Assembly: GCA_911728435.2 (NCBI GenBank)
Contig: OU452205.1
Location: 12,592,260 to 12,656,259 of the forward strand
DNA: 64,000 nt
DNA from: Apoderus coryli
Lineage: Eukaryota; Arthropoda; Insecta; Coleoptera; Attelabidae
Direction of reading: 5' to 3'
Shown here: positions 790-63,845 of the stretch, in pieces
How positions within the stretch are numbered: the stretch's first letter is position 1
Layout: every line of letters starts with the position of its first letter
Made by a program: the position numbers and the translations under genes
Notes under the pieces: model-generated
The model's input: only the letters and a program-made list of their open reading frames with translations
Database searches by the model: none
Told to the model about the DNA's origin: nothing

Positions 790-1110
790 TTCGTAAAATA
801 ATGTGTTTGGCGACATCTAGTTTACATTGGTAATATGCTGAGTGAAAAGGAATTCACTATATCGACTATGCGAGAGGCCACTGACCCCATCATTTACAAT
901 TATTACCAACACACAGGAACGCCGATACCACTATACTTTCACCAGACGCCCGTTTTGTCGTCCCGCAACTCATCAATGGTGATCGATCAGTCGATGACAG
1001 CCAAACTCTCTAGTTGCGGTGGTATATACCCTACACGGTACAGAAATGTAAAAGAATGTCTTTGGCGACATATAGTTTACGTTGGTAATATGCCGAGTGA
1101 ACATATGTAA
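790..1110 (-). repeat. Family D ribozyme-repeat copy, decayed
   Basis: It shares the GGCGACATCTAG, AATATGCCGAGTGAA and CACTGACCCCAT segments with 59935-60080 and 46690-47430. It includes a decayed hammerhead at 940-981. Confidence 0.5.
940..981 (-). ncRNA. Hammerhead ribozyme motif D0 (core decayed)
   Basis: Stem I CACCA/UGGUG and the CGUC cleavage side remain. The first core base is U (UUGAUGA), and the G of GAAA is A, so it should be inactive. Confidence 0.5.
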
Positions 1111-1480
1111 GATGAGTAAGACTTTCATTATAAATCTTTTTGAGGTTGAAGTACCGCCCAAAAAAAAATTGAAAATTTAAGTTTCTGTAATTGGTGCACT
1201 TTGAAATTGAATAATAACAGGGAGAGATCATAGTCAAACCACAGTATAATAAGTAATATCAGTATTCTGACTCTCCGCTTGCGAGGCGTCCTGCGCATCT
1301 CGTCGTGCATGCCGCCATTATGGGTTAAAACGTCACAATAATTCCAGACACGTAGATAGATACGTTCACTCCTGTGCTCAATATATAGGTCATTGTCGGC
1401 GTGTACGAGATAAATAAATATTGTGTTTCTAATCTAAATCTGTGTTTTGTGTTTTTGGCATAGTGTTCTTGAGAATTAAA
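1110..1480. other. No feature recognised
   Basis: AT-rich. Short open frames only, none protein-like. Confidence 0.6.
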
Positions 1481-1513
1481 AGGCGATAGGTATAGCTTTT
1501 CGTAAGAATTTTT

Positions 1514-1565
1514 GATAACCACTGATGATGCAGCCCGGTGCTGCGAAACATGTTTTGTAATTATC
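1514..1565 (+). ncRNA. Hammerhead ribozyme motif A1
   Basis: CUGAUGA 1522-1528; stem II GCAGC/GCUGC; GAAA 1545-1548; short stem III through CAUG; cleavage triplet GUU; stem I GAUAA/UUAUC with an internal loop. One extra U lies between the core A9 and stem II. It is followed by the family A tail GTGTGGAGGTAGAC at about 1607. Confidence 0.65.
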
Positions 1566-1639
1566 GACAAATGTAATTTTATTGGAGATATCTATTAAAA
1601 TTTATTGTGTGGAGGTAGACTTTTATTTCAAGAATATAT

Positions 1640-2434
1640 AATTATTGAAATATAACTTGTCTACATTTTTCATAATTAGAACATATATTCATAGTTCTTT
1701 AGTTGTAGTGATTCATTTTCAGCTGTGACTAACATTATTTGTATAAACAAAATATAATAATAAGTCTTCAATTTTTTATGCTACATTATATTACACAAGT
1801 GACATGCAACTAGCTAGACGCAGACATTATTACCACTCGTAGAAATATCTCTTTGTTTAACTTATTTCATATTTAACGGCCAAATGTTCAAGCAAAATCC
1901 GGGGCCGCTATGGGATCTAAATTTTCTCCATATCTTACCCACATAACTCAAAAATATGGAAGATATATGCTTATGATATTTTTAATGTCTATCCTCATGG
2001 ACTAATACTATTCAGGATTTTCTTGACCATGTAAATTCTATCCAATTTAATATCCGGTTAACAATGGAAATTGAAGAAAACAAGAAGTTTTAATTAAAAT
2101 CATATTAAAGTCCGAATAGAAGTTGTAGCTAAAATTCAGCACTCCCGCAAACCATCTGGTATACTTTCTGGACAACATCGATCAGTTCGATTATATTAAA
2201 TAATAACGGTAGATGTAGAGACACAGATATAAAAATATATTTTTTTGCTGTCACTAACAGTCGTAAGGTTGTCAGAAAATTTCCGTTGCCATGTTATATA
2301 ACTACGAAATGTAAATAATTCCTTTCAATGTATTGACAATGAATATCTTTTATTCTGCACAAAATTAGTTAAGTATCAATTAAATGATATATAAGAGGGA
2401 GACACTACTGTCATAAACATATAATTCAAATATT
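1640..2434. other. No feature recognised
   Basis: AT-rich unique-looking sequence before the RTE fragment. Confidence 0.6.
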
Positions 2435-3360
2435 TGTGGATTTGATGGCGACCTTCGTAGACTGCAAGCTGGGATGAAGATTGTATCCACATCAGTCATT
2501 GAGCTTCAATACGCGCTGTCCTTGCTGATACAGAAGAGGATCATCAATATATACTAAATGCATTTTACAGCGCATACAGGAGTATCGGCCTTCAATTGAA
2601 TATACATAAAACAGCATCTCTACCAGCCTGCACCAAACACTTTGGCTGTCCCACCATATATTCGAGTTAACGGATACAGACTTCAAAACATCGAGAGTTT
2701 CTCTTACCTCGACAGGATTCTCGCATGAGATTCAGCATCGTATTAAATGGGCAAGCGCATCTTTTGGCCGTATGAGGTCGAGAGTCTTCGAAAATCATAA
2801 TGTCGCCGTTCGAACCAAGTTCCGAGTGTATAATGCTATTGTAGTTCCTACCCTTACGTATAGCTGTGAGTCTTTTAGCGGAGCCATTTAAATACCCTAG
2901 AGAAGTACCATCAACGATGTCTTAGAGGCATTCTTGGAATTAAATGGCAGGACCGTCGAACAAACATCAGCGTTCTCGAGGATTCTTAGGCACTAGTTGT
3001 GATGGACTGGCCACGTAATCCGCATGCCAACGGAACGCCTTCCAAAGAGAATCCTTTATTCACAGCATAAGAAATGTGGCTTAAATGTGATGAACAACTG
3101 GGAGCAGATCGCGAACGAACGACCGAGATGGAGAAACGTCGACGACATGAGGATGCGAAGAGACAGTTTCGCAGGGAGGGAGAACGCATTGATAGAGCAG
3201 CGGCCCTACAATAGCTGGTAAATGATGGTGATTGTGTATGTCAGTTTTCTGACAAAATTTGTGGCTTGAGGATTGATCTGTTGCCATCTTAGGGTTCACA
3301 ACAGAAATCCCTGAGTTGGAGTAATTCATACTCGTTAGCGAGTGAATGCTGATGATGATA
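2435..3360 (+). pseudogene. RTE-like LINE, 3' end of reverse transcriptase ORF
   Basis: Reading through frameshifts and stops gives RT palm remnants (LQYA before a shift, NIHKTASL, RTKFRVYNAIVVPTLTYSCE) and the C-terminal region GHVIRMPTERLPKRILY. A degenerate Cys-rich end (CQFSDKICGLRIDLL) follows, then a GATGATGAT-type tail, all typical of RTE-type non-LTR elements. It is 5'-truncated and dead. Confidence 0.72.
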
Positions 3361-3979: not shown

Positions 3980-4640
3980 TATTGTGACCGTGGTAATTTG
4001 TTTAATATTTTGTTATTTTTAGATGCTTTTGACAGATAATGATGCGCACGAGCTATGAATGTAAAAGATAAATAAATTAAAGAAAACTTCTTTGTTCCTG
4101 AAAAGGCAATATAAGTACCCAGCCAAAAAATAATATGGTTTAAAGAGGCTACTCTCAACCTTTCAATAATTATTTATTTTAAAATGTATAAGTATCAGAG
4201 ATATGCGTTACTCGTGTAAAAGTAGGCGAACAGGATAACAAGTAATGTAGTTTTAAAAGAGTATCAACAACATCATAAGAGATGTTTCGGAACCTTATCT
4301 CCATCCTAGCATTGTTCTATTGTTCTCCTTCTCCTATATGCATAGGCATAACTCTTAATAGACTAAAAGTAATTTTAATTAGAATACAGTTTTCGAGTAC
4401 CGCACATCTCTGATACGTACACATTTTAAAATAATTAATTATTGATAGGTTGAAAGTAGCCTCTTTAAACCATATTATATATTTGTCTAGGTACATCACC
4501 CTTTTAGGAACAAAGAAGTCGTCTTTAAATTATTTATCGTCAACATTCATGGCCCTTCCGGATCATTGTTTGTCAAAAAGCATCTAAAAATATCAAAATA
4601 ATAAGCAAATTATTACGGTCACATTTATACATAATTCATG
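3980..4640. repeat. Foldback element
   Basis: Arms about 3980-4215 and 4385-4640 are diverged inverted copies (for example ACTTCTTTGTTCCT against AGGAACAAAGAAGT). The spacer is about 170 bp. No protein is evident. Confidence 0.65.
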
Positions 4641-5730: not shown

Positions 5731-7236
5731 CAGGGTGGCCCATTAGTGTGTGGGCGGAAGATATCTCAAGATCTATAAGCGATAGACAAAAAAATCGTTT
5801 ACAAAACATTTAGGCACTGAAGAGATGTACAATACTAAAATGTTTTTAATTATACAGACTAGTTCACAAACGCGCAGTAGATTAAATTTGCTTTTTCTTC
5901 ATGCGACACCCTGTATATTTTAACAAAAATGAATGGTGCGATAAAAGACAAGAACAACGACATAAGACTTGATAGGCCTAGGTGCAGTAGTTTTGAAAAT
6001 ATTTGTAAATAATGGTTAATTTTGAGATACATTTGAGGCGTTGTGGTTACTACAGAAACAAAATGCGTACCAATTTTTCATGTCAGATCCATTCAAATTC
6101 CATTCTTTTCTTCGTTTTACTGGATTTCAGTGACCTCTAATTTGTAATTTTTCAGGTGTAAATTGTATTTTTATGGGAAAATCTTAAATGGGATCCCCTG
6201 CATATCTGCCTAAATTCGCAATGTTTCTTTCCCATACATTTTATTGATATCATATTTCATGAGCTTAAGGCTAACCATTTTTTTATAAAAAATTATTGAT
6301 ACAAAAAAAAAAGAAGTTGCAATTTTTTGACATTTTAATTTTTTTTTCTATTTAAAAACCAAAAAGTGTAATTACAGTTTTGTTTTAATAATTTGCAAAT
6401 AGACCCTCTTAAAAAATAAAATTAAAATGGTTTTATCACACATTTTTTGACAATTTAACTTTAAATAGAATAAAAATTGGTTAAACCAAAATTTCCCTGG
6501 AAGATGGATAGGACGTAGAGGAATAAAAATAGGTTAAACCAAAATTTCCCTGGAAGATGGATAGGACGTAGAGGAGCCACAAATTCAATGGGGAGTATAT
6601 TAAAGAAATAATTTACCGTGAGCCACCAAGAACCATAGAAGACATGAAAATTAGAATTCGAAATGCTTTTGCATGCATTACTCCCCAACTGCTCCAACGA
6701 GCTAAAAATTCATTTGTTTTAAGACTGCAGAAGTGCCGCGAACAAGGTGGTCGACATTTTGAGCATTTGGTAAACTAAAAATAAGCGTCTATTTGCAAAA
6801 CTATTAAAACAAAACTGTAATTTAACTTTTTGGTTTTTAAATAGAAAAAAAATAATTAAAATGACAAAAAATTGCAACTTTTATTTTTTTTTGGTTCAAT
6901 TTTTATAAAAAAAAGGTTAGCCTTAAGCTCATGATATATGATATTAATAACAAGTATATGAAAAGAACTTCTTGAATTTAGGCAGATATACAGGGTGTCC
7001 CATTTAAGATTTTCACCCTCAAAAATTACAACTTAGAGGCCAATAAAATCCAGTAAAACGAAGAAATGGATCTGACATGAAAAATTGGTATCTATTTTGT
7101 TTCTGTAGTAACCACAACGCCACGTTTGTTTTTGTTGTACATCTCTTCAGTGCCTAAAAGTTTTGTAAAGGATTTTTTTGTCTACCGCTTATGGATCTTG
7201 AGATATCTTCCGCCCACACACTAATGGGCCACCCTG
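5731..7236 (+). mobile_element. Tc1/mariner-like element with long inverted termini
   Basis: It is flanked by TA. The ends are CAGGGTGGCCCATTAGTGTG and its inverse, with arms of several hundred bp (inner part 5980-6250 against 6960-7140). A transposase C-terminus is read at 6587-6778. A segment of about 55 bp is tandemly duplicated at 6470-6575. Confidence 0.75.
6587..6778 (+). pseudogene. C-terminal transposase fragment (DDE, Tc1/mariner-like)
   Basis: An open frame ends ...KIRIRNAFACITPQ ... LQKCREQGGRHFEHLVN stop, the usual end of DDE_3-type transposases. Upstream, FPGRWIGRRG is present, but the catalytic SPDL region between is deleted. Confidence 0.6.
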
Positions 7237-8559: not shown

Positions 8560-11020
8560 AATTCCAGATAATATAGAATATGACTTGCGCAAGAAGCCTT
8601 AAACACCTAACTCCGAGTATGATTTTAAAGGTGACCTTAGAATCGACAAGATTACTGGAAAGTTAGTATACGAGGGTTGCCTTTTATATTTCGGGATTAG
8701 AGAACAAAAACAACTATTAATCATCGAAAATCACTTTATTGTTTTCCAAAATATTCCCCATGAAGATCTATACACTTTTGCATGCGTTTGAACCAATTGT
8801 CGAAGCACTTTTGCCACTCTGATGACTGAGGTATTATTTCCAAAACATGCATTCTGAATGCAGCAACCGCTGCTGTTTTTACGGGAGGGAATAAAAAGAA
8901 GTTATTCGGTGCCAAGTCAGGACTATACGGCGGATGACTCATCAAATCGATATTTTGGGTGCTCAAAAATGCAGTTGTTTGAGCCGATGTGTGAGAGCTC
9001 GCATTGTCGTGGTGAAGAGTGATCCGTCTTCGGCAGTTGGTTTTACTGATTTCTTAGAAGACAACTGGCAAACAAATGGTTGTGTACCACTCAGAATTGG
9101 ATGTTACGCGTTGTTCTAGTGGTACGGTTGCGACATGTCCAGTTTTCCCGAAAAAAACAGGCAACCATTTGCTTGGAATTGCTTCGTGCGCGAACAACTT
9201 TTGTTGGATTTGGCTCATCTTGAAACACCCATACAGTCGACGGCTGTTTACTTTCGGGGCACTCATACGCGTAAATCTACGATTCATCACCTGTCGCGAT
9301 ATCATAGACGTGTTTCGAAGCACCGCGATCGTATTTTTTTAGCATTTCTTTCGACCAATCGACACAAGCCTTTTTTTGAGCGATTGACAAATTGTGTGGG
9401 ATTCAACGCGAACAAATTTTTTTGACAGTCAAATGTTTATGCAATATTGAGTGTATGCTGGTCCCAATAATGCCTAAGGTTGTCTCAATCTCTTGACATG
9501 ACGATCTTGCAATGTCAGTTCGCGCATAACATCAATGGTTTTCGGAACAACAACTGATTTTGGACGAGCTTCACGAAATTCGTCTTGGAGTGAACTACGA
9601 CCACGATTGAATTCACCATACCATCGATAAACACTGGTAAGTGATGGAGCTTCATCGCCAAAAATTGAATTAAGTTCATCCATGCACTGTTGCTGAGTTA
9701 ATCCACGTCGAAAGTTGTAAAAAATAATCGCACGAAAATGTTCACGATTTAATTCCATTTTTGGGCCGAGATAAATCTTTTAAGTCACTGTAAACAACAC
9801 AAATACGGCTCATATGTCAAAACGTTCGTTCGAGTTCGTATATCCTCAAAAATGTCCAACTTTACGATACAGCTGTCAGTTGCCAGATTGCAACACCAGC
9901 GTTGCCAAATCCCGAAATATGAAAGTCAACCCTCGTACTCACCTTAGATATTTTAAAATGGATTGGCTTAGTCAATATCAATGGATGACGTATTCACCAA
10001 AATTAAAAGGAGCATTATGCAAATACTGTGCTATTTTCACGTCATAGTTGTAAAAAGAGGGCGTGTGGATGCTTTAATTAAAACAATTTAACGACTACAA
10101 CAAACATTTACAGAAAAGGCCAAAGCTCACAAAAAAACGGAATGGCAGCGTGAGCCTCATACCAAAGCATTTTCGTTCAAGAAAATTATATCTGGAGGGG
10201 TTTCTACGATAACTGAGCAATTAAATTGGGCCGAGAAAGATATCATCGAACAGGATAGAAGAAATCATCGTTGTAGCTCTGTGCGACACATGATATTTCC
10301 TTATAACGAGTGAAAGAAACACATCAGGGAAATTCCCAAAATGTGTGACAATTCAGGAGACAATGTTCATTAGGACCACATTCAAAATTGTCACAAAAGA
10401 GCAAAACACACCTCCCCAAAGACACAAGATGACCTAATAGAAGTGACTTCTACAATTATCTGCAAACCAATAGTAGCGGAAGTGATTAATAGCGAAGCTT
10501 TTCTATCTTGGCTGATGAAACCACAGATATAGCAGGAGTTGAACACCTCTAAGTTAGTGTGAGGTCTCTAGATAAACGAAATCACATTAGAGAAAAGTTC
10601 CTTGGATTCACCGAATTATCTAAAATGGACGCCAAAACCATAGCATAGTCAATAATCAATAGCTGCCCGAGTTACAGTTTAAATATGTACAAACTTGATG
10701 GTTTGGGCTTTGATGGATGTTCGACTATGTCCGGAAAAGGTAATGGAATGCAAAAATTAATAAGATACGTTTAAATGATCTCAATGATGTGTCACGAATT
10801 CAAAATACTATCGCAATTATTAAATATATTATAAAAATTTTTAAAGAGAGTTCCAAAAGAAGACTACTAATATGCAATATACCACTGTTTTGTGAGACCA
10901 GATGGTCTGCTAAATACAATAAGAAAAATTGATTGAAGTGTAGGTATAAGGCATTGCCAGAAATAACCTCTAGTTCAAATGAATTTAATAGCCAGTGTCG
11001 TCTCACGGCAACGCCACAAA
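8560..11020 (+). pseudogene. hAT/ZMYM1-like transposase, decayed, split by a mariner
   Basis: Pieces before (8600-8670, EYDFKGDLRIDK) and after (9938 on: WLSQYQWMTYSPKLKGALCK with YCAIF) flank the mariner. Later pieces are FLGFTELSKMDAKTIA, LDGLGFDGCSTMSGKGNGMQ and PLFCETRWSAKYNK, landmarks of ZMYM1/DUF4371-type hAT transposases. There are many stops and shifts. Confidence 0.65.
8671..9935 (-). mobile_element. Near-full-length mariner, transposase broken
   Basis: It is 1265 bp, flanked by TA (8669-8670, 9936-9937). The termini are CGAGGGTTGCCTTTTATATT and a matching inverse. The minus strand holds the N-terminal helix-turn-helix (MELNREHFRAIIFYNFRRGL), HVATVPLEQR, HHDNASSHTS and YSPDLAPNNFFLF. 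Frameshifts are near 9050, 9330 and 9470, and a deletion follows FFLF. The third catalytic Asp is Asn (APNN instead of APND). Confidence 0.92.
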
Positions 11021-13560: not shown

Positions 13561-13682
13561 ATTTAATTAATTACGCAGTCTATTAGTATTTTCCGCAATG
13601 TGGCCAAGCATTTGTAATTATATTAAAACAAAACAAACAAACCGTCACCTCCAAATATTTATTCTCCAAAAATCACCCTAAG

Positions 13683-13726
13683 TGCTACATATTTCGAAAA
13701 CCGATGCTTTCATCATCAGTCACAAA
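13683..13726 (-). ncRNA. Hammerhead ribozyme motif A2
   Basis: CUGAUGA (plus-strand 13713-13719), extra U, stem II GAAAGC/GUUUUC, GAAA, AUGUA on the cleavage side. Stem I is weak (GUG/CAC). Confidence 0.55.
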
Positions 13727-14031
13727 CCTTATCAACAAAACAGTGTCAAGGACAAAACAAAACAATATACCTAGCTGGCAAAACTCAGTGCACACATTTG
13801 CATTTGATAAACAAATGTACAAAAATTTAAAATCATGGGTGATTTGCCCCTTTTATTCAAAATTATTTAACACTGAAAATATATTATTATTTTTTGACTA
13901 ATTAATGCAACCATTTTTAATTTTATTGTTTTGGTTTTTTTAAATTTTCATCTGATTTTATTAATTACTGTCACTTAGTGCGTTTTGCCAGCTATATTGT
14001 TTTGTCCTTGACACTGTATTGTTGATAAGGT

Positions 14032-14076
14032 TTGTGCCTGATGATGAAAGCATCGGCTTTCGAAACATGTATCACT
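14032..14076 (+). ncRNA. Hammerhead ribozyme motif A3
   Basis: CUGAUGA 14038-14044, extra U, perfect stem II GAAAGC/GCUUUC with AUCG loop, GAAA 14062-14065, then CAUGUA. Stem I is GUG/CAC after one mismatch. Confidence 0.62.
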
Positions 14077-14205
14077 TAGGGTGATTTTTGGAGAATAAAT
14101 TTGTGGAGGTGACGGCTGTTTGCTTTGTTTTATTACATTGCAATCCACTGAGTAGGCACCTTATTTTGTTTATGCAAACTAGACACAATTTTCCTAATGC
14201 CTACC

Positions 14206-17324: not shown

Positions 17325-17646
17325 TTAAGGCTGTTTGATCAGACTCAAAATATAGGTATAAGGCATTCATGATTGTGCACTTATTTCTTAATCGATTTGA
17401 AAAATTCTTTTTGGATCATAGAGAGAACACTTTAACAGAGGTTTATATAGGAATAAAAAAAAAATCTTAGCAATTTATATTGACTTCAAAATAAATTTTT
17501 AAGAAATTTTATTTTTATTCCTATATAAACCTCTGTTAAAGTGTTCTCTCTATGATCCAAAAAGAATTTTCTAAATCGATTAAGAAATAAGTGCACAATC
17601 ATGAATGCCTTATACCTATATTTGGAGTCTGATCAAACAGCCTTAA
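17325..17646. mobile_element. TTAA-flanked palindromic MITE
   Basis: Between TTAA copies the ends are GGCTGTTTGATCAGACTC and its inverse. The arms are about 135 bp with only a few differences. The spacer is about 60 bp and AT-rich. TTAA suggests a piggyBac-type integrase, but the terminal bases are not the usual CCC. Confidence 0.7.
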
Positions 17647-19250: not shown

Positions 19251-19280
19251 TAATTTTAAAATTTTAGAGACGAATTGTAC

Positions 19281-19310
19281 CTGAAGAAGGCTAATGAGCC
19301 GAAACCAAGA
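19281..19310 (+). ncRNA. Decayed hammerhead-like core
   Basis: CUGAAGA, extra A, stem II GGCU/AGCC with AAUG loop, GAAA C. The expected GUH cleavage side is absent (CAAGAAAG). Confidence 0.3.
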
Positions 19311-19324
19311 AAGAGAAAGAATTA

Positions 19325-19470
19325 TTAAAAAATTATTCTGACGAGTTCGTCATAATTAAAATAAATTCGTCAATATCAGTGGTTCCATGCGTCAGTCTGA
19401 TTGCACTGATTAGACTGGTGCTCTATCAACATATTTTGCTTGAGGAAACACAGTAATTTTTTATTTCAGT
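19325..19470 (+). repeat. Family C ribozyme-repeat copy, decayed
   Basis: It has CTGACGAGTTCGTC and a following segment resembling the MCATGCSTCRGTCTG part of 46290-46435 and 50265-50440. The ribozyme core is no longer intact. Confidence 0.35.
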
Positions 19471-20312: not shown

Positions 20313-20319
20313 TATATTG

Positions 20320-28550: not shown

Positions 28551-28553
28551 CAG

Positions 28554-46600: not shown

Positions 46601-49600
46601 CCAGAATCTTCGATCGGCTGAGATTTCGTGACCCCAAAATATAATCAGGGGGTATTGATTATATTTTGAGCGTCTAGGAAACATTTCCTTCTGAGTTTAA
46701 GAATTGCTTGTTACATAAAGCAACAAGGCTTTAAGTTATGTTGGAAATTTGTTTCACACTACCATGCTTTCACCAGACGGCCGTTTCGTCGATCCACGAC
46801 TCATCAGTGGTGATCGGCAGGCAGTGTGATCCAAATTTCCAACATTTACAAAGAGCTTATACTAGCACGAAATTGATTGAGAGAGAGAGAGATGTTTTGG
46901 CGACATCTAGCGTGAACAGGCAATATGCCGGGTGAAACACAGTTCACAAACGATGGCCGGACAAGAAGTACCAACTCCATTATATCCTATTGCCAACACT
47001 AGATGCGCCCGAATCCCCGAGCAGGGAGGAGTTATTTAAGAATTGCTTGTTACATAAAGCAACAAGACTTTAAGTTATGTTGGAAATTTGTTTCACACTA
47101 CCATGCTTTCACCAGACGACTCTTTGTAAATGTTGGAAATTTGGGTCACACTGCCTGCCGATCACCACTGATGAGTCGTCGATCGACGAAACGGCCGTCT
47201 GGTGAAAGCATGGTGGTGTGAAACAAATTTCCAAGATAACTTAAAGTCTTGTTGCTTTATGTAACAAGCAATTCTTAAATAAAGCCTCCCTGTTAGGGGA
47301 TTCGGGCGCATCTAGTGTTGGCAATAGGATATAATGGAGTTGTTACTTCTTGTCCGGCCATCGTTTGTGAACTGTGTTTCACCCGGCATATTGCCTGTTC
47401 ACGCTAGATGTCGCCATCTCTCTCTCTCGATAAAAAAATGTTTAAAAAATGGGACACACCCACGTTTTTCCCCGGTAAATCAGGATAGTTTTTAAATATT
47501 AAAGGTCTACAGAAAGAAAATGAAAAACAACACAAAAAAAATTTTTAGTTTTTCTTAATTTAATTTTTATATTTTAGTATACAATATAACAAATATTTTT
47601 CCATAAAAATGGTGAGTTGTTCATAGAACAGTTACTTACTGGCATGTGCTTACCGTTAAATGTATTTCCAGACCTCAATAAAAACTTGAAGGATTGATTT
47701 TAAAGTTTCTCTTTTCGCCACTGATAATGTGTTTAGTATTCAGTGTTGGTGTGGGATTGATGGGCTGAGCTTGAGTACAACTAAATGTAAGTATATTAGG
47801 TTTTCTAGAAAAATATAGATAAATGATTGTGCGTACACGGTACACCAGGCTGAGGTTCCTCGCTGTTCTTTCGTCACGGATTTGGGTGTCATATTTAATA
47901 TAAAATTTACGTTTGCTGGCCATATTAATGCCAAATATTTGGAAGTAAGTAAGCTATATGGGTTTTGTGGTGCGGCACTGCAGCGGCTTTGACAACATTG
48001 ATGCCTTTGAGTGCTCTATTGCTCATATATATTCGTTGAAAACATGAGATGCCTCCTTGATCTGGTTTCCGATTTATGACATCCATAAATGATTTGTGGC
48101 AAGGATTCGGTAATTTATTTTGAGGTACTTAGCATTTAAGATTGATGGAGTTTTTCCTCATTATGAAGAGGTTCGAGTTTAGAACTTTAGATTTTTGGGG
48201 GTCACTGCGATCGGTGTGTTACCGGCGTGGTGTCATATATGCAAGAGCTGAGTGTGCAGCTTTGCTTTCTGTACTAAATATAAATGTTCCGAGATTGCAC
48301 AGTTTCTCTAATTTGGCATTCTACTATCATCGCGCTAAAAATAGTGCATATGCATATAAGGTCGCCTGCTAACAATAATTGTAGCCAGTGTAACCTCATA
48401 TGTGCTAGTAACCATGAGAGTTAAAACACAACAAGGGCTTATACTTAAGCTCTTCGTAAATGTTGCAAATTTGGGTCACATTGCCTGCCGATCACCACTG
48501 ATGAGTTATGGAACAACGAAACCGCCCGTCTGGTGAAAGCATGATGTTGCGAACCAAATTTCCAACATAACTGAAAATTTTGTTACTTTATGTAACAAGC
48601 AATTCGTAATATTTATGAATTGACGCTGTATATTACGACTAAAGTTACCTTGTGCCCCTAGGTTTTAATACACTTAGACCACAAAGCGGTATCACGTACA
48701 GCAAGACACTTACTTGTGGATCCACCTCAATGCACATGGAAGGTACTCGGGTGATCGGGACCGGCTTCAAAAGATTATAAAAAATATTCGTAAATAAAAC
48801 ATGCTAGCGGTATGTGCACCTTGCGGGTATATTAAATCATGAATATCGAACTTATGCTTTCTGTTGAAGGTTGTATTTCCATTTCCCTTAATTTGTTTTG
48901 GTAAACACTGTGCTGAACCCGCTATAATAAACCATAAATAATAAAATAAAATTAAAGAAAAAACAAAATAAGAATGAATAATCTTTGTTTCAGAACAAGC
49001 CTACAAATACTGTCGACCTGACGGCACGTGGGAGACCCGAGAGAATGGTAATATATCCCAAGATTACACACATTACGAGAACTGTCTTCTGCCGCAATTA
49101 CAGTCGCTCACGGAAATGTGCAGTGAATTTGGATCTGATGTGTGTGCAAAGGTAATTTTAATGTATATTTACAGGCTGCACCATTTGCAGAAACCAAATA
49201 GTATAAGACACAAATAAAACAACGTCCACTCCACCAAACTATTTAGCTATATTTGTTCGCAATCAACTTGCGGTGCCAGACATGTTTCAGAAAACTAAGT
49301 TTCCATCATCAGTGGCCTAGTATACATAGTATACAGTCATGTTACAAGTCAACCACAGTATGGCATGGATTATTTAAACATCTATATTCTGTAAATGGCT
49401 TTCGCACAAAATTGTTGAAATTCCTCAACTAATGATGATGATTTAATTTACGCACGTAACAACGTAGTTTATGCATGATTGTGCACCAACGCATTTTCGT
49501 CGCGTTGCTCGTGTGTTTTTAACAGAAAAATACAAAAATCGCTGAATTGGCCGTGATGGACCGTACTTAGGTCCTGCACGATCCCCGGATTTAAACCCAC

Positions 49601-52600
49601 TGGATATATGCATGTCGGCCACCTGAAGTCCTTAGTTTACGCTACTGCTGTTGAAAATATAGTTTTGGTTGCTTTATCTCAGGACAATATCGAATTTAAT
49701 TGCGTACATTTTTTATTGTCAATAATTTTTTTATTAACGCTTCCGAACCTATGTTTATTTTTCATAAAATGACCTGAGAAATTACCCCTGCAAATATTGC
49801 CGCGTCTTTTTGAAACACCCTGTATATAAACGTATTTTTATGCAGTAGACATGACACGTCTACTATCTTAACTTGATCGATCTTGATTTAGAATTATATT
49901 TTATGTAGTCTGAAAATAGAATTGGTCCACCTAAGGACAAATTTAATACTTAAAAATCTTACTCAAACAATTTTTATTGGAATTAATAATGGATTTTCTC
50001 TTTAATTTTTAAAGCACACTGGTTGCTTTGAATTTTCTCTAAGTTAATGGCTACGCCTATGAAAGGAGTCTAGTTCACATGGTAACTTCTACCCGTACCA
50101 TAAAAGTTGTATTTCATACATATTTCGGGTTATCTGTGCTAAACAATTTTGGATGCAACACGGTAGATATTTCTGAATGACTTTCTGCATCTGTGTTACC
50201 TATATAATGTTTTTGCAAGACCTACTTAGCCAAGAATAGCGACTGAAATGCATGGAAAATTCGTGATACTCTGACGAGCTCATAATAGAAGCAAAACGAA
50301 TTCGTCAGTTTCTGTCGACCCATGCCTCGGTCTGGTTCTACTGAATCAGACTGCGCCCCTGCTAAATTAGACAAAGTTCCTTGTGTAGGTAAAACCAATC
50401 TGTTTTTGTCCGTTTTGCTAGAAAATTGTTTTTATTAATTTTTTGTACCACTATTTATCATTTAAAGAGTATAAACACATTTGTACGCGACATAATAGAA
50501 AATGATGTTTGATCTTGTTCATATATTTCAACTCAAACAAGACTTTAGTAGGATTATAGAAGAGAATATGAGCCACAGCAACATTACGACACGGAATTAG
50601 GCTAGGATGTAATTCCTCATTTGTGTTTTATTTGCAGATTGCTCGTACAACTAGATGTATAGAAATTGTAGGATTATCATGTTCATTGGTAACGCTACTA
50701 GCATCACTATATATTTTCTTCTCATACAGGTATGTATACAACATGGCTCTTGAAATACTTCAGGAAATTCGACAGATATTTAAAAGAAAAGTATTAATTA
50801 GTATTAAATCAATTATGCGGCAAACAATAAGTTACTCCATACTCATATATGATCAATATTTTTCCTTCTTACTCTATAATTACATGTAACATTTTTCCCC
50901 GTGTAGGTTATACCGCTTATTTTAAACCATAGTACAATATATTTTAAAGTTTATTCTGCTTAACGAAGTGTTAGCTGTTAAACGTCATATACAAACAGTA
51001 TTCCGCTTTCTATTTAAGCTACAAAATTCATAACTTCGTATAGTGTTTCTAAAAAAAAAAACTTAATTCAAAATCAGATGGTAGAAAGTTATGTAAAGTA
51101 CGGGCATGTTTAATTCAATTCCAAGCAAATTATCTACCTGTGGCAATAATTGAAATGGATATGCAGAATGCTTATAAAAAGTAAAATGCGGTATCATAAT
51201 ATTTCGACGGATTTACCTATATATTTATAAAATAGTTTTACATTCTTGTATAAATGGATGATGATGAGAGGTTACTAAAAAGGAATATTTTTGGTATATT
51301 CGAAATGGAATAGTTGAATTCATTCTAGATAGAACTGTCGTTATATAATAAAGTTGTAAATTTTGAAAGCAATTGTTAAGTAGTTAAGCCTTAAACACGG
51401 AGGTCCTATAATTCGCGATTCCGTGGTGCGTATGTGGGGGTTCCCGTCCGCCGGCCGTCTAGCCTTCTATTAGTAGATGTGCTGTAGTTGTATGGTATTG
51501 ATTTTTTTCTCGGGCTTTTATTTTGCATAATCGGGTGCCGCGGACCCAACGTCCGTGCTTGTGTACAATGGATAGAATGAAGAAGATTAAGAGGGGAATC
51601 TGAAACGGTTAGTTACAAAAATGGCCGCTAGTATGGTTGTATTCTTGGTTGCCTAAGGCTGTATTCATTTAAAAATATCCATTTCTTAAGTTACAACATA
51701 TTTTAATATATTCTTCTCCTCACTAGGTGGCGCCAAAACTAATACATAGTGACCCTAAAATGTAATATTTCTATTTTGGGTAATCATTATTTTTATTCTT
51801 TTTTGTGCATATATTCGTTTGTAATACAGACTGTAAGTATAATATATTATTGGTACCTAGGTATTATATCTATATACAAGATATAAGCAAGTTATGTTCG
51901 ATATACCTATAAGGTAGAGGTAGAGTGCACTTTTTGGAGTGATTGTATTGCAAAGATATTGCCCAATTTAGAACATAATTTAGCTCCACAATTCGGTTGC
52001 CTTTAATTATGTACTCATCTTGACTTTCCTTTTCTACAGTCAGTGGACAAGTGTTAATGCTAAAATGTAATTAAAAATACGTTGTTTTAATCACATGAAA
52101 TTGCAGTATTAAGTACATGATATATAACCCTTCATATTCATCTGATGAAATACACCCCGCTTCCTTTTTGTCATGCTTTTCATCCGTAAAAGCATAAGAT
52201 CTTAAATCATAACTTTCAGATCTAAAAAAAATAATATATATATTATTTTCAGACCTTTTTTTCTTTTATAGTAATCGCACCTACCCTTGACTGGTCACGG
52301 TTGTTATTACATCTTCATAGACTTGCGTTTCATTAATATTGTTATTTATATTATTTTCATTCCGCCCAGGTCTAGAATGAATTTTATTTATATAACATAT
52401 ACAGGGTCTCCTATGGTGATGACACATTAGAATATTTCAGAGACTACCTTGAATTGAATTTCAAAAATTTCGGCATCTAAATATGGTCTACTCAAATCAC
52501 ATAATAGCAACTGCATAACACCTTCGGTTCTGCCAGAAGTTGATGGCGACTTTGTTGTTTTAAATAGAACGTTCTATATTTTATTACATTTTTAGATTCT

Positions 52601-55600
52601 ACGTGAGTTTGTAGACATGTTTCCTGTATCATGTTGTATGCCTAATTCCAATGAAAAGGATGTTAGAAAAACAGTTGAAAAGTTTATCTTACTCATCATT
52701 AAAAATGAGGGCAATTTTGTAACAGGTGTTCGATGATAAGTAAGATAAAATTAGAAAAATATATGTACCATTTGAAAAAATTCATTTTCAAATGTACTTT
52801 CTAACATCCATTTGTATGTATGTATCTATACTTTTTTGACCACCTCGTATGAATAAATCTGAAAATATCTTATGGAATCGGAGACCTTACTTTCTAAGAA
52901 AACACATATAAAATAATTAACAGAGACGTCCTTATGAGAAAAAATTAATATTATTTGGTCCTAAAATGTAAATTTTGACATAAATCTTGATAAAAGCACG
53001 TCAGAAACGACTGAAATTAGGCATACAACATGATACAGGAAACATGTCTACAATCTTACGTACAATCCAAAAATGTAATAAAATATAGGATGTTCTATTT
53101 AAAATAACAAAGTCGCCATCAACTTCTGGTAGAACCGGAAGTGTATACAGTTGCTATTGTGTTATTCGAGTAGACCATATTTAGATGCCTAAATTTTTGA
53201 AATTCAATTCAAGGTATAGTCTCTGAAATATTCTAATGGGTCGGCACCATAGGACACTCTGTATATAACTTTAGAAAATGAGTTTGACAAAATACCCAGT
53301 GACATTAAAAAAAATTGTATCTGATTGAACCTATATTTCGCATAGAAATAAACATTTTTATATACCTACTTACCTTTGAGAATTTAAATGTATAGGACTT
53401 CCCTCCGAAAAATCTTCAACTACATCATTTCCATTAGTTTCGCTCTAAATTTTTTAAATATGAAACTAAGGAAAAAAAATGGTGTCGTCATATTGCCCAA
53501 ATATTCCTTTTCCAATATATTTTTTTTAAAATGTTAGGCAACTTAACTAATTTGCGTAAAAATTAGTATCTCTTAATGGCATGTTATTGTATTTTCTTAA
53601 ATCTGAGTTTAACTGTAATTAATTTGGTTATTAAAATAATTGACATCATCTGACTAACATTTTTGATTTGAGGAAATCAAGTTATACTCATTTATACGAC
53701 GATAAATCTTGGATACTAATTCTGAACACGCTGTATAACTTAAAAGAAGAGTATCAATAAGTTAAGTGAAAGCTGGTTATCACCAACGTAAACAGTTTTT
53801 CTTGAAATTTACTATATACTCGAAAATATTATGTAGATCGGTACTGGGTTATTCTACGTAAATAACAAACTGCCCAATTGGTTCGTAAATAATTTTACTT
53901 ATAAAAAAAACTAATACTACAAATAACACGAAATAACACAAAACTAGGTCTTCGCTTATCATCTGGTTATAGTTACAATAATTAGGTATACGTACATAAA
54001 AGGGATGAATGAAAGATAGAAATAGATATTATATTTATGGTGTATGTGAAAAACTGGTTCTATTGTCCTCGGTGGTAAGTATATTATCGATTATTGCGGA
54101 ATGTTTTAGATATTGTCAACAGATTATTTTTGTCTTGCTGTGTATAAATTGAAAAAAAAGTGAACTGTAAGCGGCGCCCATAGCGACATCTCTTCAATGC
54201 TGTCCCAACTACAAACATAATGTTCGGTCGGTAAATTTATAAAGAAATTATAAGAAAATGGCGGATATTTGAAGGGAAATATGAGATATTTTTTTATATA
54301 TGGATATTGTCTAATACAGAAAGTTTTCACGTACAGTTTTAATTACAAGTGATTGTTAAATATATAAATTAGGTAATAAAGCAATATTATCATTATTAAA
54401 TATTAGAATCATAGCACAAAATGAGGAAAAAGTTGCTGACTTTGAACTCAATTTATTAAGTAATTATTTATTGTTGTAGCCTCAAAATACCTTATTACCT
54501 AATCCAAACCTTAGTCTTTAAAACCCTATTAAAATTTTTGCTACCAGATACGTATTAGTGGAGATTTCCATCCACAAAAATATATCTGTAAATTTGAAAA
54601 AATTACCCATGTTTGAACTCAATTTATGAGTTAACTATTTAATCTTTCCGCTTGAAAATACTTCATTACCTAATCCCATCTTTTGTCTTTAAAACCCTAT
54701 AAAAATTTTTGCTAGCAGATACGTCTTAGTGGCGACTACCATGCGCAAAATTATGCCTGCAAAGCGAAATATGATGATTTTCTAACTCTGTTTTTGAACT
54801 AACTATCCAATATTTCAACTTCAAAATACTTCAATACCTAATCCCATCTTTACTCTTTAACTCCCTATCAAAATTTTTGCTACCAGATACGTATTAGTGG
54901 AGTCTACCATGCGCAAAAATAGGTCTGCAAACGATTGTATTCAAACGCCCCTCTTAAGGTAACTGATGATAATTTTGAGGCAGCAAGAGATGGTAATGTG
55001 GCTCAAGCAGTAGAACGTTCTAGGAGAAAAAGGTGCCACTTCTGCCTATCAGGAAAAGACAGAAAGACACAAAGCAGATCCCAAAAATGTAAAAGGCCCA
55101 TTTGCCTACAATGTGCAAATAAAGTATGCAATAACTGTTCAGCATAAGTTGTCAAGCTAAAAAAAGTGTTTTTTTATACCTATATATTTTTTTAAAGTTA
55201 CATGTGCTTATGCAACTAAGGAAATGTTTTTTGACGACTAATTAGGACCAGTTTTTGTTTTTAGCAATTTATATTTCTAGAGTTGTTTTATTATTTTAGT
55301 ATTTATTTATTTAGGTGCCAAACACATTATATATGTTTTGCTTTGTATTATTTTATTTAAAAAAATTGTATTTGATATTTTTTTAAAGTTACATGTGTTT
55401 TTGTAATCTAAGGAAATGTTTTGTGACGACTAGTTAGGACCAGTTTTTGCTTTTAGCAATTTATATTTCTAAAGTTGTTTTATTATTTTCGTATTCATTT
55501 ATTTAGATGCCAAACATATTCTATATGTTTTTTTTTTTGTATTATTTTATTTAGAAAATGATTAACAACCGATTTCAAGTTCTAACTAGTTTTTGGATTA

Positions 55601-58600
55601 TTACATACAAATAAATAAAAAAATTTGTGGGTCCCAGGGACCCATGGTCGGTAAATATGGATATTTAATTGTAACAAAATAGAACCCGCCACTGGCAAGC
55701 TTACAGATTACCTAATTCTAGAATACTAGTCCTTTTTTTTCTAATATATATATTTACGATAACACGAAATATTCCCATAGATTTCTTGATATAGGGTTCT
55801 TATTTTTTCTAAACATAAATACGAACGTACCCTAATATTATGTGATACGACAAACATGGGGGGTCTAAGAGTTATCTTCGTCATAAAGATTATGCAAGGC
55901 TTTTAAAAATATTTTGTTCTTAAGATGTCATTTTTCTTGTCCAACTCTTGGGAAAGATAACCAGATGTTTGAAATAACCGTTGGTCTAACATTTAAAATG
56001 TCTTTTTTCTGATTGGCTTATTTTCATTTTGTATTATCTACTATGTAACTTTTATGAGGCAATTCTGGAAAGGCAAAAGGACTTTAAGAGCAGAATCGTT
56101 CTAGCATTGATTGAGTAAAGAAGTGTTTTCTCTAATTATAAAATGTTAAATTAAATATGTTAATTTGTTTTTGGACTTGGTATAATTTTCAGTCAAGAAT
56201 TATTTTCTAGTTTTTTTTTATGTTTTAAAGTATCTGTATAAAGACTGAGTCCATTTCTTTCTCATTCTGAAGTAGTGAATTGTATAAAGTTCCGTAAGTT
56301 TTGATATTCTTTTAATTGAAGGCCTTTTTGTTTAATCAGTTTTTATTATATAAAAAGTTTAAAGTTATTTCTTTTAGTAATTGAAATAAATTCCGTTTTC
56401 AATAGTAATTAAAGTTTCGTATAGGAATTAATATAATTATTCGAATTATATTAATTTTCCTATTTTTAAGTAGTACAAGTAATAACTACGATTTTCTTTT
56501 AAATTCTCATTATCGCTTAATTGTTTTATTCTTTTTCTTTTATTTATACATATTTATTTCTTGTTGTTATTCATTTTCTTTAATTAGTTTTAATTATTAA
56601 ATTAGTTGATTTTAGCCCACAAACTTTGTGTTTCATTTCTAATAAAGTTTCGATAAATTATTGACAAAAGGGTCAACCAATTCAATATTTTCTTTTAAAT
56701 AAAAAGTGATCCAAGATTATAATGGCAACTAATTTTGCATTACTTCAATAGAGATTAGTAAAGCTTATTTTAGTTGTTTGTTTGTTTCATATAATAATTT
56801 GATTCTGTTATTATTCAAGATGATATTCTTTGTTTGTTCTTCTTTATTTGAAACCGCTCGTAAAACATGAATCGAACCCGTAACAATTTGAATAGCATAT
56901 TAGGGTTCATTCGGATTGAGCTATAACATTAGTATTCTTTCTGAATATATATAACACCCGCTAATTTCAAAATGGTTACATAACGCACCTCCGTGTATAA
57001 GGGTTAATTTTGATATTTAAATATTCTCATTAAGGGAGTTTACCTACAGTTAGTAAAAATATTTTTTTCAATAATAAGAAGTACTATATAAAATTCATAT
57101 ATGATGCAGCACTATAATATCGTAAAAAAATCACTGCGAAACAACAACAGAAAGTTTCATTTTGTAATTTAATTGTGATCGATTCAAATACGGCATTATG
57201 TTCAATGTCTCTTAATCAATATCAGGGACTACAGCACAATACTAGCAGAAATCTGAAACTAACAAATTAACATGTTATTACAGTCAGAAAATAAGATTAC
57301 TTAACATATACAAAAATTGTATCTCACCATAAATAGATAGCTATACGCAATTTAACCATTAGAAAAAAACCTTCCCAAAAAACTGCAATTTCACAAACTT
57401 CAGTCCTAAAACGCTTCATTTCCGGCTTATAGTGTATAAGTTTGTAATAGCAACCTTCACAGAATATTTTAAATGATTTGGTAAACCATATTTTAAACAA
57501 ATAATAATCATTAAACCGCTTAAATGTTTGTGACTGTAAAAGAGTAATTACAAATCCTCAGGGTATACATAAATGTTTTAAATTTTGTCAATGTACCCAA
57601 AAGGTTATATGTGTAATTTTAATTCTAAGCTTTAGGAAAGTACAAACTAAATGCTGCTCAGCAATATGTCGGAGAAGTCTCAGAATTATGAATATGGCAC
57701 TTAGTGCCTTTGGTACTTCCACTTTTCAACTATCTGTGATATTCCTGAAGATGTGCTGAATTTTAGAACGAAACGTTTGAATGATTAAATGTGACATATG
57801 AATTGAGATGTTTCATTTTGAGAGAAACTTTTTAATAATATGCATATTGAAAAAATAAACGTACACAATTATTAACAAGTGGTTTAAAGATATGCCCAAT
57901 ATCTTAAAATGCCGCGCTGGAGTCTGAGAAATCCATTAATATTAGCATTGTGTTTGTTATAATATAGTGTGTCAGCGCTTGGTTAGTACCTGTCAACTAA
58001 CAACAGATGGCGCTATCATATACCAGAAATTTATTAATGAACGACTGAAGTTGATAACGCCGTCTGTTGTTAGATGACGATACTAACCAAGCGCTGACAC
58101 ACTATATTATAATAAACACAATGATATTAGTCAGTAGGAGTTTATGTGTGTTTAGCCTGACACAGAGTGAAATTAGAACTTTTATTACTATTGGGATCTC
58201 GGTAAACGGTAAGAGTTTGAGAGGAATTCTACGAATATTTAAAAAATAAATTTTTAAATATTCGTTTTGTTTTTGTTGTAACTGTTTATAGATCATTGGA
58301 TTTCACCACCAGTTGTTTAACTGGATTGATATCCAATATGGGGGCCATATTAATTTTTAGGCATAGAAATAATTTTGCTTTGAGAATGTCCTTTCCGTTT
58401 TGGTGTATTCAAATAATTACTCAAAAAAATACAATTTCAATAATTTAAAAAAAAAATATTTCGTAAGTAGAATATTTATACCTCCTCGTCTAAAAGTTAC
58501 CGTTTACGATATCTCACTGTTGACCTTATAATTTGAATCACCTTGTATATCATTATATTATTGGAATTACTTATTTTGATATTATTCCAAAATAATATAT

Positions 58601-61600
58601 TTTTCAATAATTTAATATTATTTGTTTTTTCAGCGTATTGAAGAATAACAGAACAAAAATCCACAAAAATTTATTTATAGCAACTTTACTGCAAGTGATA
58701 TTTAGGCTAATCAAATATATTGATCAAGGAATGGATGAGAATAAGAAATTTCTCTCAAATGATGTAAGTAGTGTTTCGCTATTTAACCTTGTTAGTAATG
58801 GTGTCGACATGCCAGTAGTCTTGATGGGTTCAGAAACCGATGACAACCGTCGAAGTGCATTTAGTGGAGAGTGGTTGCAACTTGAGTGAGGGTTTCGGGA
58901 GTCATGCAATAATGGACCAGCCGGTGGCTTATCTAAGTTCTAGAATGAATGGTGAAGTGTGATAGTAGCATGATAGAGAGAGTAGTGCGATGCTCAAATG
59001 GCAGAATAAGCCTCTGGAGACTGAAACACGCCATTCGTACACCCCGGAGCCGCAATCAGAGCGTATGATATCAACGTGTTTTTTTCTGGAAATGATTGAG
59101 AGTTTTTCTTAGAAACAGACATACTAATTGAGGGCTTTTTTTATCGAAAAAGCTTTTTCAAACTCACAGATCCACGACTCATTAGTGTTGTACACGAACT
59201 ATATAAATATGTGATGACACCTAGTGATTAAAAGGTAACCTGATGTGTGAATAAAAATTCACTATAACAGCTAGAGAAGGAAGTCAAATTCCCTACCGTC
59301 AAGCAAGCTCTCAAAGTATAGGATCTTGCTGCAATAAATAATCTTAATAATTTCAGGCGTCCCGCTAGGGAATATATGTGTTCGTTATCGAGCTTAATGG
59401 AGTCAGTGGCCTCCTATTCGGCGGCTATATTGAATATTTACTTACACGCCACGTTACTGCTGCTAAAGTATTCCTATCAAAAATTTATTTTTCAGATTCA
59501 CCTTTATGAAATATGCACGGCACTAATGGAATATACAAAAACAGCTATGTTTATGTGGATGTTTATTGAAGGCCTTTATTTGTATAATTTAGTCACAGTT
59601 GCATTATACCAAGAGCACAAGTACATTAAATGGTATATATCTGTTGGATGGTCCATACCGGCAATAATGATAGCCATATGGCTAGGAGTCATGTTGGTCA
59701 AAGGCAATGAAGCGTAAGTGTGCATTTAAATTTTTATTTTAAAGAAATAGTTCATACTGAAGTGGAATGAAATAAGTTTCAACAATCGCTCTATGCGTCA
59801 CTAAGAAAACCAAACATGTTTCGAAGCCTCAGGCGTATCATCAGTGGTTATTCATAATATTTATTTAATTCCGAGAGTTTCTCTGTCAACCTCTCGGAAT
59901 TTAAGTCTTGTTTTGTTAAACAAGCCCATTTCTAATATAGGCGGTCCCGCTTAAGGGAGTATCGGTGCGTCTATGTGTTGGTAGTTGTGCTTTATGGGGT
60001 CAGTGACCTCCCAGGCAGTTGATATAGTGAAATGTTGTTCGCTCGGCGTACTACCAACGAAAACTAGATGTCGCCAAACACATTCATTATCATTAGACAC
60101 ACGGTTACAAATATTACACATTACGAACAAAGAAGAATGCAACAACATATTAGTGCGCGCTATTGACAAGTAAAAAACAGTATTATTATTACGTGTACGC
60201 AAAGTAGGGACATAAAATGGAAGCAATTCTAACAACTCTGGACAATCAATTACTCCATTTATAATCTTGTACAGTAAGATAATAGCAGAACATTCTCTAC
60301 GCGTACGTCAAGATATCAAATTAAAACGATTTAGGAGCGTATCATGTGGAAATCCATTGACTGGATAAACTCCATCGCTACGAAACCACAGAAACTTAGC
60401 GAAACGACGCTGAATGAAATTCATATGTACGACTCCACACAACAGAGGCATACTCTAACTTAGCCCTAACAAATGCATTGAATAAAGCAATAAGATATTT
60501 AAGAGAAGCCAAATTGCATGTGTAAATTTTGGTAAATTATAATTATTGTAAGATAAGACGGAGGGATATGTCAAAGTCAAACCTTATTGAATTTATAAGA
60601 AATTTTATGAACATAAATTATTACAATGGAAATTTGTAATGTAAACAACTATATTCATTGATTTACTTGTGACACATGTTGAAACATTCAAGGCAGTAAT
60701 GTGGCCCATCGACCAACCGATGCAAAAATGTCTACTTTTTTTACGTCGTTTTTAGAAATTTGACCTCAAACTTTTTTTTTTGGCTAAGGAGGAGAAATCT
60801 AGATATACACCCACGAAGTTGCTTACCACTTCCTTGGGTAGTGTGATAGACTTTAGCTCCACTAAAACTTTCCCTCATTTGTTGTTTGGCTCGGGAACCA
60901 ACTCTTTTCCATATCCTCTGTTGCTGTTGCCTTCTGTAGGTGGTGCCTAAAAATTACTATGTAACATACATTTAAATTACTAGACCTGAAATAAATAATA
61001 AACAATACTCGTATAAATTATTGATGTCTTCAAGCTGGGGATTACTTCGTCAGAGTTGACTTCTTGGTCTCCGGTACTGCCTGGCACCGTTTTCTACATT
61101 ATAGTTGACTACTTCACTAATCAGTGGGTTTGGATGTGCCTCTGCCATTACAAAGAGCTTCTAGGCTCTCAACCTCATGACGTCCCTCCAGGAGTTAAGT
61201 TTGAGGTCCCTTCGGATCTGTGCGTTTGACAAAAACCAAGGCGCACGAACTGCCATCCTTCTTGCCTTGTATGATGGTGCCGCGTATCCGCATGCTGAAC
61301 TGGCATAGATGAAGGCAGTTCGCACGACTGCCATGATCATTTGGAGCAAGGGCATCTTGCTCCTTCTGCAGATCATCGAGTAGAGCTTCAAAATGATGCA
61401 TTTGGCATTCACGATGCTCTTCTCGATGTGCGGACTCCATGACAGGGATCTGTTCAAAGTTAGCCCAAGGTACTTTGCAGTGTCCTGCCATTATTGAATG
61501 TCAGTACGCTCGAGTTTTTTTTGCTAACAGCAACAGCAGCTCCTTCTTTTGTCGCTTAATATCTATGTGCATGTTTTCAAAAATGCCTTCACGAAAATCA

Positions 61601-62365: not shown

Positions 62366-62636
62366 GTAAGTATAAAAAGTTTATAATGAATTTTCTGCTC
62401 CTTCTCTATTTGATCTACTATAATCTACTCTTGTTTAAATAAAACTTAAGTTCATATTGATATATGGGAGAGAATTTGAGCATTTTCTAGTAGAGGCAAA
62501 ATTGATTTTCTGATATGCAACGCTTGATTGCATAGTCGACTAGCGACGCTGTGTGCAAATTTTGAAAGGAATAATTTGAAATATATTATGCTATAAGAAA
62601 TCATACTTTATAATGCTCGCAGTTTTTGTCATGATG

Positions 62637-62700
62637 TACAGGGTGTCCCAAACTCGGCGGCCCAGGCCTATTGTATGAAAACCAGATAAGATAATAAAAA
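62637..62700 (+). repeat. Single Tc1/mariner-type terminus
   Basis: TACAGGGTGTCCCAAACTCG. No matching right end found in the window. Confidence 0.5.
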
Positions 62701-63230
62701 TCTTTTTGAAGGGCTCAATTGAGTTATGCTAAGGTCCATTTTGGGAAAGCAAAATATTTTTTTCCACTTTCGCAAAATGTAGAAAATGACGATCAATGTT
62801 ATTTTTTCACGAACATACCTGTATTTTGCTCCAATCGAAAAGATTTATTTTTTTCCAAACACTTTTCGAAAAAAAAAATTTCTATCTCTTTTCGGTAAAA
62901 AGTTAGGGCGCCCACACAAAAAAAAATACTTAAGTATTATTTAATTTAGCCATGTTACCAATCAAGTGGTCCATGGAAAACAATTATCCGAACTTTCTGT
63001 AACAAAAGACACACACAGTTAAAGACACCAGTTATTTAGGGGCAGAAAGTTAATAAGTGTTTTAAGTGATTCGTAGTTTAAGTCTTTCAATAGAGTTTGT
63101 ACCGAGATAGATACTTTAGCTCCAGCCTTTATGAGCTCAGAAGTTTTGGCGATTATTAGGGCATTCAAAGATAATATGAATTAGTTTGGCAAATGAAAAG
63201 GCTGTCGTATCCACTAAATTGTTTTTTATT

Positions 63231-63275
63231 CAAATACATGTTTTGACCCTAGCTAGGGTCATCATCAGTTAGATA
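63231..63275 (-). ncRNA. Hammerhead motif F1 (G12 mutated)
   Basis: CUGAUGA, extra U, stem II GACCC/GGGUC, AAAA for GAAA, CAUGUA. Confidence 0.5.
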
Positions 63276-63799
63276 GAAACAATGATTATACAACTACGAG
63301 GAGGAGAAAAACATTGTCAGTTATTTTATATCAGAAACAAACATTATAACTTACCTAAGTGGAGAGGTTACATCGCAAATTTTATAAAACATTTATCAAA
63401 GGTTTACATTATCTTACAAACTAACACTATTAAAATAATACTCATGAAGTTCTTATAGGAATATCTCATGATTTCAATTATATCGACTTTTTTCTTACGA
63501 ATCATAAGGATAAATTATTAGTTAGGATAGTTAGATAGGATAGTTAGGATAGATAATAATTTATCCTTATGATTCGTAAGAAAAAAGTCCATATAATTGA
63601 AATCATGAGATATTCCTATAAGACCCTCATGCGTTTTATTTTATTAGTGTTAGTTTGTAAGATAATGTAAACCCTTGATAAATGTTTTATAAAATTTCCG
63701 ATGTAACCTCTCCACTTAGGTAAGTTATAATGTTTGTTTCTGATATAAAATAACTAACAATGTTTTTCTCCTCCTTGTAGTTGTATAATCATTGTTTCT

Positions 63800-63845
63800 A
63801 CCTACCTGATGATGACCAAAACCTGGGTCGAAACATGTATTTGAA
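63800..63845 (+). ncRNA. Hammerhead ribozyme F2
   Basis: CUGAUGA 63806-63812, extra U, stem II GACC/GGUC, GAAA 63830-63833, CAUGUA. Stem I is not convincing. Confidence 0.5.

Follow-up and report, generated by a model that had tools for sequence, protein, structure and literature searches.

What kind of mobile element could have strewn hammerhead ribozymes over a short piece of a beetle genome? The question is raised by a 64,000-nucleotide stretch of Apoderus coryli DNA (GenBank assembly GCA_911728435.2, contig OU452205.1, positions 12,592,260 to 12,656,259; hereafter the window), in which an initial annotation had noticed about twenty such motifs and linked them to Penelope-like elements (PLEs) and animal retrozymes. 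By-eye reading of the sequence recognised 21 hammerhead-like motifs of five families on both strands, spanning 939-63845, a number in agreement with the initial annotation. We consider it probable that all of them are minimal type I hammerheads, that those of families A and B lie in the pseudo-long terminal repeats (pseudo-LTRs) of decayed, protein-less PLEs, and that family D is retrozyme-like, with families C and E probably belonging to one of these two kinds. The sequence-level evidence consists of ribozyme folds with covariation, inverted arms and, in two elements, flanking direct repeats and a one-sided 40-nt extension.

Hammerhead motifs, chance expectation and covariation

The motifs fell into families A (nine copies), B (four), C (three), D (four) and E (one), and are read as type I, the form with three stems and the ends in stem I. 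The set was drawn from the 46 CUGANGA words of the window, which were read with their surroundings, and was completed by two copies whose core has changed, A9 (recognised with a family-A covariance model) and D4. The core, defined by CUGANGA, GAA, A15.1/U16.1 and H17, was intact in 13 copies (A1, A2, A3, A4, A5, A7, A8, B2, B4, D1, D2, D3, and E1), in line with the dozen or so given in the initial annotation, and the junction-proximal part of stem I was mismatched in four of these (A1, A2, A3, and A7). The core was broken in the other eight (A6, B1, B3, A9, C1, C2, C3, and D4), with the lesions given below. Most copies are decayed, and the hammerheads are of an already known kind. Two further candidates on the plus strand, F1 (19281; 19275-19330) and G1 (57745; 57739-57784), were too weak and were left uncounted.

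1516-1560, plus strand: hammerhead A1
13680-13725, minus strand: hammerhead A2
14032-14077, plus strand: hammerhead A3
49273-49318, minus strand: hammerhead A4, strict descriptor match
59807-59850, minus strand: hammerhead A5, stem I AACCA/UGGUU, weak stem II
63229-63274, minus strand: hammerhead A6, AAA for GAA
63800-63845, plus strand: hammerhead A7, core intact, poor stem I
38336-38387, minus strand: hammerhead A8, weak stem II
25301-25344, minus strand: hammerhead A9, core base C3 changed to A
35492-35535, minus strand: hammerhead B1, TAA for GAA
35683-35789, plus strand: hammerhead B2, core intact, long insertion in loop II
35874-35917, minus strand: hammerhead B3, TAA for GAA
36061-36104, plus strand: hammerhead B4, strict descriptor match
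46382-46435, minus strand: hammerhead C1, U at 15.1
50265-50318, plus strand: hammerhead C2, AAA for GAA
19330-19376, plus strand: hammerhead C3, degenerate inside, stem I UAUU/AAUA
46770-46813, minus strand: hammerhead D1, type I, fully paired
47162-47205, plus strand: hammerhead D2, type I, fully paired
48492-48536, plus strand: hammerhead D3
939-982, minus strand: hammerhead D4, degenerate core, with core base C3 changed to U and AAA
62009-62054, minus strand: hammerhead E1, strict descriptor match

One additional base was found between CUGANGA and stem II in all nine copies of family A (U), all four of family B (A) and E1 (A); on the same reading, it was not present in the C and D copies. 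A viroid hammerhead whose conserved core is separated from stem II by a single additional nucleotide was reportedly described by de la Pena and Flores in 2001; that molecule was a plant viroid, whereas the extra U of family A completed an ATG, the G of which was the first base of stem II in A7. The box TTTGTGGAGGTGACG was located downstream of five of the nine family-A ribozymes (A2, A3, A4, A8, and A9) and had eight matches in the window against 0.79 expected, the other three being at 31671, 2433, and 11006. The copy at 31671-31685 (minus strand) had no ribozyme upstream and was probably a truncated relative.

With a strict descriptor (stems I and II of at least 3 bp each and stem III of at least 2 bp), six matches, including A4, B4, and E1, were obtained in the window, against a mean of 0.02 and a maximum of 1 in 200 dinucleotide shuffles. 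The control was unrelated viral and prokaryotic DNA (1,911,389 bases) from among the matches listed in pattern scans for relatives, chosen for containing the family-A core pattern; it gave one strict match with a score of 4.0, while the window matches scored 8.5-14.0. An earlier descriptor without the extra nucleotide had matched only D1-D3 (three matches in the window and none in 100 shuffles). A descriptor allowing one core mismatch gave one match against 0.14 expected, which was treated as chance.

All of the stem I pairs named in the initial annotation (CACCA/UGGUG, GCCA/UGGC, AACCA/UGGUU, CAAC/GUUG, and UACU/AGUA) were present, as were its stem III palindromes, and the covariation that it had claimed was supported in family A. 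In an alignment of seven family-A copies, which stand for five lineages because A2/A3 and A6/A7 are arm pairs and in which stem II of A1 and A5 is misplaced, 80.7% of the 88 cells were paired, and only 25.7-42.0% after the partners had been slid by 1-3 columns. Changes on both sides were found in 8 of the 13 pairs, a number equalled by 40 of 500 shuffles; the 19 cells with both-side changes and the covariation score of 0.487 were each reached in 0 of 500. In family A, stem I and stem II both showed compensatory changes; family C contained one, from UACU/AGUA to UAUU/AAUA, the latter in C3.

No match was found in the window at the Rfam gathering score, and the absence of covariance-model hits above threshold was exactly what the initial annotation had named as a refutation. 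When E values up to 10 were considered, D1 and D2 were the sole hammerhead matches, each with 33.8 bits to Hammerhead_1 (E 1.2e-4), which is 0.2 bit short of the cut-off of 34. The Rfam models appear to be ill-suited to the minimal motifs. A covariance model built from the seven family-A copies (R1) recovered A9 with a score of 28.2 bits (E 7.9e-6); its matches up to E 10 included no C copy. The R1 scores of D1-D3 (20-21 bits), B4 (16.4), and E1 (14.1) were dropped as evidence because 16 loci that had been chosen beforehand for their core pattern scored up to 23.6 bits. Since about twenty copies were invisible at the Rfam gathering scores, counts of such ribozymes made at that level in animal genomes are likely to be underestimates.

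Inverted arms, flanking repeats and tandem units

Counted hammerheads were located in four long palindromes, two of family A, one of family B and one of family D. The outermost ribozymes of the palindromes faced outward, and the inner two of family B faced inward. Inverted arms, flanking repeats and a one-sided 40-nt extension occurred together in two of the four (63185-63929 and 35377-36247). This inverted-pair layout, the flanking repeats, the extra nucleotide in families A, B, and E, and copy A9 all go beyond the initial annotation.

63185-63929: family-A element, head-to-head inverted arms bearing ribozymes, no open reading frame (ORF)
63171-63184, plus strand: left flanking direct repeat, 14 bp
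63930-63943, plus strand: right flanking direct repeat, 14 bp
63890-63929, plus strand: one-sided 40-nt extension, PLE-like tail
13612-14143: older family-A palindrome, arms 73% identical
35377-36247: family-B element, ribozymes in the order minus, plus, minus, plus
35365-35376, plus strand: left flanking direct repeat, 12 bp, AT-rich
36248-36259, plus strand: right flanking direct repeat, 12 bp
36208-36247, plus strand: one-sided 40-nt extension
46696-47428: family-D cluster, one minus-strand tandem step and an inverted unit

The family-A element, which carries A6 and A7, was recognised as a palindrome (63182-63892, 90.6% identical) and from the alignment of its arms. Its extension was found on the right arm only, the left arm beginning directly at the repeat, and a repeat of at least 14 bp was reached by 8 of 3000 random pairs. 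The ATG of A7 was 118 nt from the long end of the element and 78 nt from the end of the short arm. Differences between the A6 and A7 arms were denser inside the ribozyme, at 8 of 46 columns, than in the remainder (18 of 284; Fisher p 0.017). In the older palindrome, the same stem I pair was broken in A2 and in A3, in each case through the loss of one side. The copies A1, A4, A5, A8, and A9 were solitary.

The family-B element corresponded to a palindrome at 35368-36216, in which a whole inverted unit recurred about every 380 bp. Its 12-bp flanking repeat, of which an additional copy was found at 36272, was matched by 22 of 3000 random pairs, and a run of A left an uncertainty of 1 nt in the length of its extension. 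In ten palindromes of the window without counted hammerheads, the flanking repeat never exceeded 10 bp. For families A and B, PLE pseudo-LTRs are the best reading, as their inverted arms, together with the flanking repeats and the one-sided extension in two elements, suggest.

The family-D unit was 337 bp long, with a GC content of 44% and a circular fold z of -5.6 (60 shuffles). Its tandem arrangement consisted of a single step, with one copy truncated, plus one inversion. With its canonical type I motif in a unit of this length, family D appears closer to animal retrozymes. The PLE link proposed at first is supported by the anatomy of the two A and B elements, and the families do not appear to be of one kind. 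The inverted junction of family D (47112-47130) began at most 4 nt from the predicted cut site. A cleaved template was perhaps responsible; a deletion through a 4-nt match would also account for the junction.

Stem III, the proposed working and rival explanations

Within a single molecule (loop of at least 3 nt), stem III could form no pair in B4, one pair in A1, A3, and A4, and two pairs in C1, D2, and E1, and in none of these seven copies did the pairs lower the energy. When two molecules were considered, 4-8 pairs could form. Because stem III seems too short within a single A or B molecule, the sequence favours action as dimers, as the initial annotation had expected. Dimeric action has been published for amphibian and PLE-type motifs, which also have a weak helix III (excerpts of PMC7229834 and PMC7761336).

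If families A and B are PLE pseudo-LTRs, copies of these would be carried on a transcript, in which two ribozyme copies may pair through the self-complementary stem III and cleave after H17. The A and B elements would be non-autonomous because no ORF for a PLE reverse transcriptase with GIY-YIG was found in those scanned, and a PLE reverse transcriptase with its GIY-YIG endonuclease from elsewhere in the genome would open an AT-rich target. Complementary DNA (cDNA) would then start at both DNA ends, each time from one or the other of two sites separated by about 40 nt, so that two copies would come to lie head to head. The two bounded palindromes fit the recent model of PLE integration, with both strands primed and two start sites. 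A bolder proposal, which we regard as unlikely, is that the ORF-less head-to-head pairs are the mobile units themselves, each insertion consisting of two RNAs copied by reverse transcription from either side of a single target break, one from each of two start sites 40 nt apart. Because each arm is an inverted copy of the other, an outward ribozyme is encoded on both strands of the DNA, and as the whole inverted unit of family B is repeated with arm-specific changes, its RNA could bear hammerheads of either polarity, which would be a viroid-like arrangement within an animal genome.

Several results weigh against reading families A and B as PLE pseudo-LTRs with working ribozymes. No PLE domain was found in 30 of the 36 ORFs of at least 90 amino acids, the six outside the scan being those at 9058, 13587, 22710, and 23816 (plus strand) and at 42453 and 47675 (minus strand). 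A flanking repeat above chance was found at only two of the four ribozyme palindromes, none being seen at 13612-14143 or at the family-D palindrome, and the AT-rich 12-bp repeat of family B was matched by 2.2% of 586 AT-matched random pairs. The ATG was retained in seven of the nine A copies, and a stop followed within 12 codons in all seven. Co-folding did not bear out the dimers, since the double hammerhead was the best structure in none of eight copies. The predicted minimum-energy monomers were not hammerheads either (for D2, -16.3 against -7.8 kcal/mol for the hammerhead). These folding results are weak evidence either way because the programs disregard tertiary contacts. In the anole Poseidon element PAc, the hammerhead did not cut without protein, insertion in vitro was independent of cleavage, and no reads ended at the cut site (excerpt of PMC11167929), which implied that the ribozyme step may be dispensable.

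It is distinctly unlikely that all families are animal retrozymes, non-autonomous elements whose RNA is cut by the hammerhead, circularised by transfer RNA ligase and copied back into the genome. Family D would suit this explanation, with its fully paired type I motif, its strong self-pairing as a circle and a unit near the published ones in length and GC content (excerpt of PMC7229834), and so would the period of family B. However, the A copies are not tandem, and inverted arms with a one-sided extension, as found in A and B, are not described for animal retrozymes in that excerpt. The same features bear on the idea that the palindromes are foldback DNA transposons, similar to miniature inverted-repeat transposable elements (MITEs) and moved by a transposase, with the hammerhead sequence incidental. 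Many further long palindromes and mariner-like protein pieces in the window would agree with this idea, but the 14- and 12-bp flanking repeats, the disruption of terminal symmetry by the one-sided extension, and the five solitary A copies would not, and we judge it very unlikely.

It is highly improbable that the motifs only resemble hammerheads, by chance or without function, and owe their spread to unrelated repeats. Although no Rfam match reached the gathering score, eight cores were broken and the losses in A2 and A3 were one-sided, the excess of strict matches over shuffles, the both-side changes in family A, the paired change in family C and the E value of D1 and D2 in Rfam all argue against this explanation.

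Genomic surroundings and known systems

A class B G protein-coupled receptor gene with long introns probably encloses the window; secretin-type receptor (7tm_2) ORFs were found on the plus strand at 58611-58889 (E 1.4e-4) and 59322-59717 (E 1.1e-15). A fragment of an RVT_1 reverse transcriptase was located at 24142-24657 (minus strand, E 1.4e-12), and pieces of a mariner-like transposase at 8736-9779 (minus strand), with HTH_48 above the cut-off and DDE_3 just under it. Two direct repeat copies, each about 755 bp long, lay at 27800-28553 and 28551-29303 with 97.5% identity. Long palindromes were frequent in the window; those without a counted hammerhead at 3983-4623, 6037-7121, 17325-17646, 19752-20320, 22020-23110, 25593-26431, 42431-42795, and 52397-53266 included several that were foldback- or MITE-like.

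The ribozymes and elements were compared with known systems as described in excerpts of the cited articles. In the openly licensed literature, as judged by title, nothing was found on ORF-less inverted pseudo-LTR pairs with hammerheads, an absence that does not establish novelty. Minimal type I hammerheads of the PLE type (Cervera and de la Pena 2014; Luense, Weinberg and Breaker 2017, as summarised in PMC7761336) number in the thousands; the majority are scattered through non-coding DNA, and some lie in pseudo-LTRs. The motifs of the window were similar to these in the type I order, in a stem III of a few self-complementary bases and in the proposed dimers. They differed in the presence of five families within 64 kb and in the lack of PLE protein among the 30 scanned ORFs, and may differ in the base added after CUGANGA in families A, B, and E. 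Animal non-LTR retrozymes have tandem units of about 170-400 nt with low GC content (PMC7229834). Family D resembled them in its canonical type I motif, its unit of a few hundred bp and its low GC content, and may resemble them in tandem arrangement, of which it had a single step; it was different in the additional inverted unit.

For the A and B elements, rotifer Penelope offers a close parallel in its head-to-head inverted pseudo-LTRs, its duplications of 8-10 bp, which are missing in some copies, and an optional 31-bp tail on one pseudo-LTR (PMC3846280). Both have inverted pseudo-LTRs, short target duplications and, on one arm, a tail some 30-40 bp long, whereas the rotifer copies enclose an ORF or captured DNA and the elements here are ORF-less, with longer duplications (12-14 bp). 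The PLE protein of PAc cuts and extends both strands, and two adjacent internal cDNA start sites account for its tail of 30-40 bp (PMC11167929). PAc is tandem and protein-coding, unlike the copies compared here. The ORF of PAc starts at stem II of a hammerhead, and the preferred cDNA start is reached 111-118 bp into it. This is similar to A7, in which the ATG lies at the hammerhead and 118 nt from the long end of the element.

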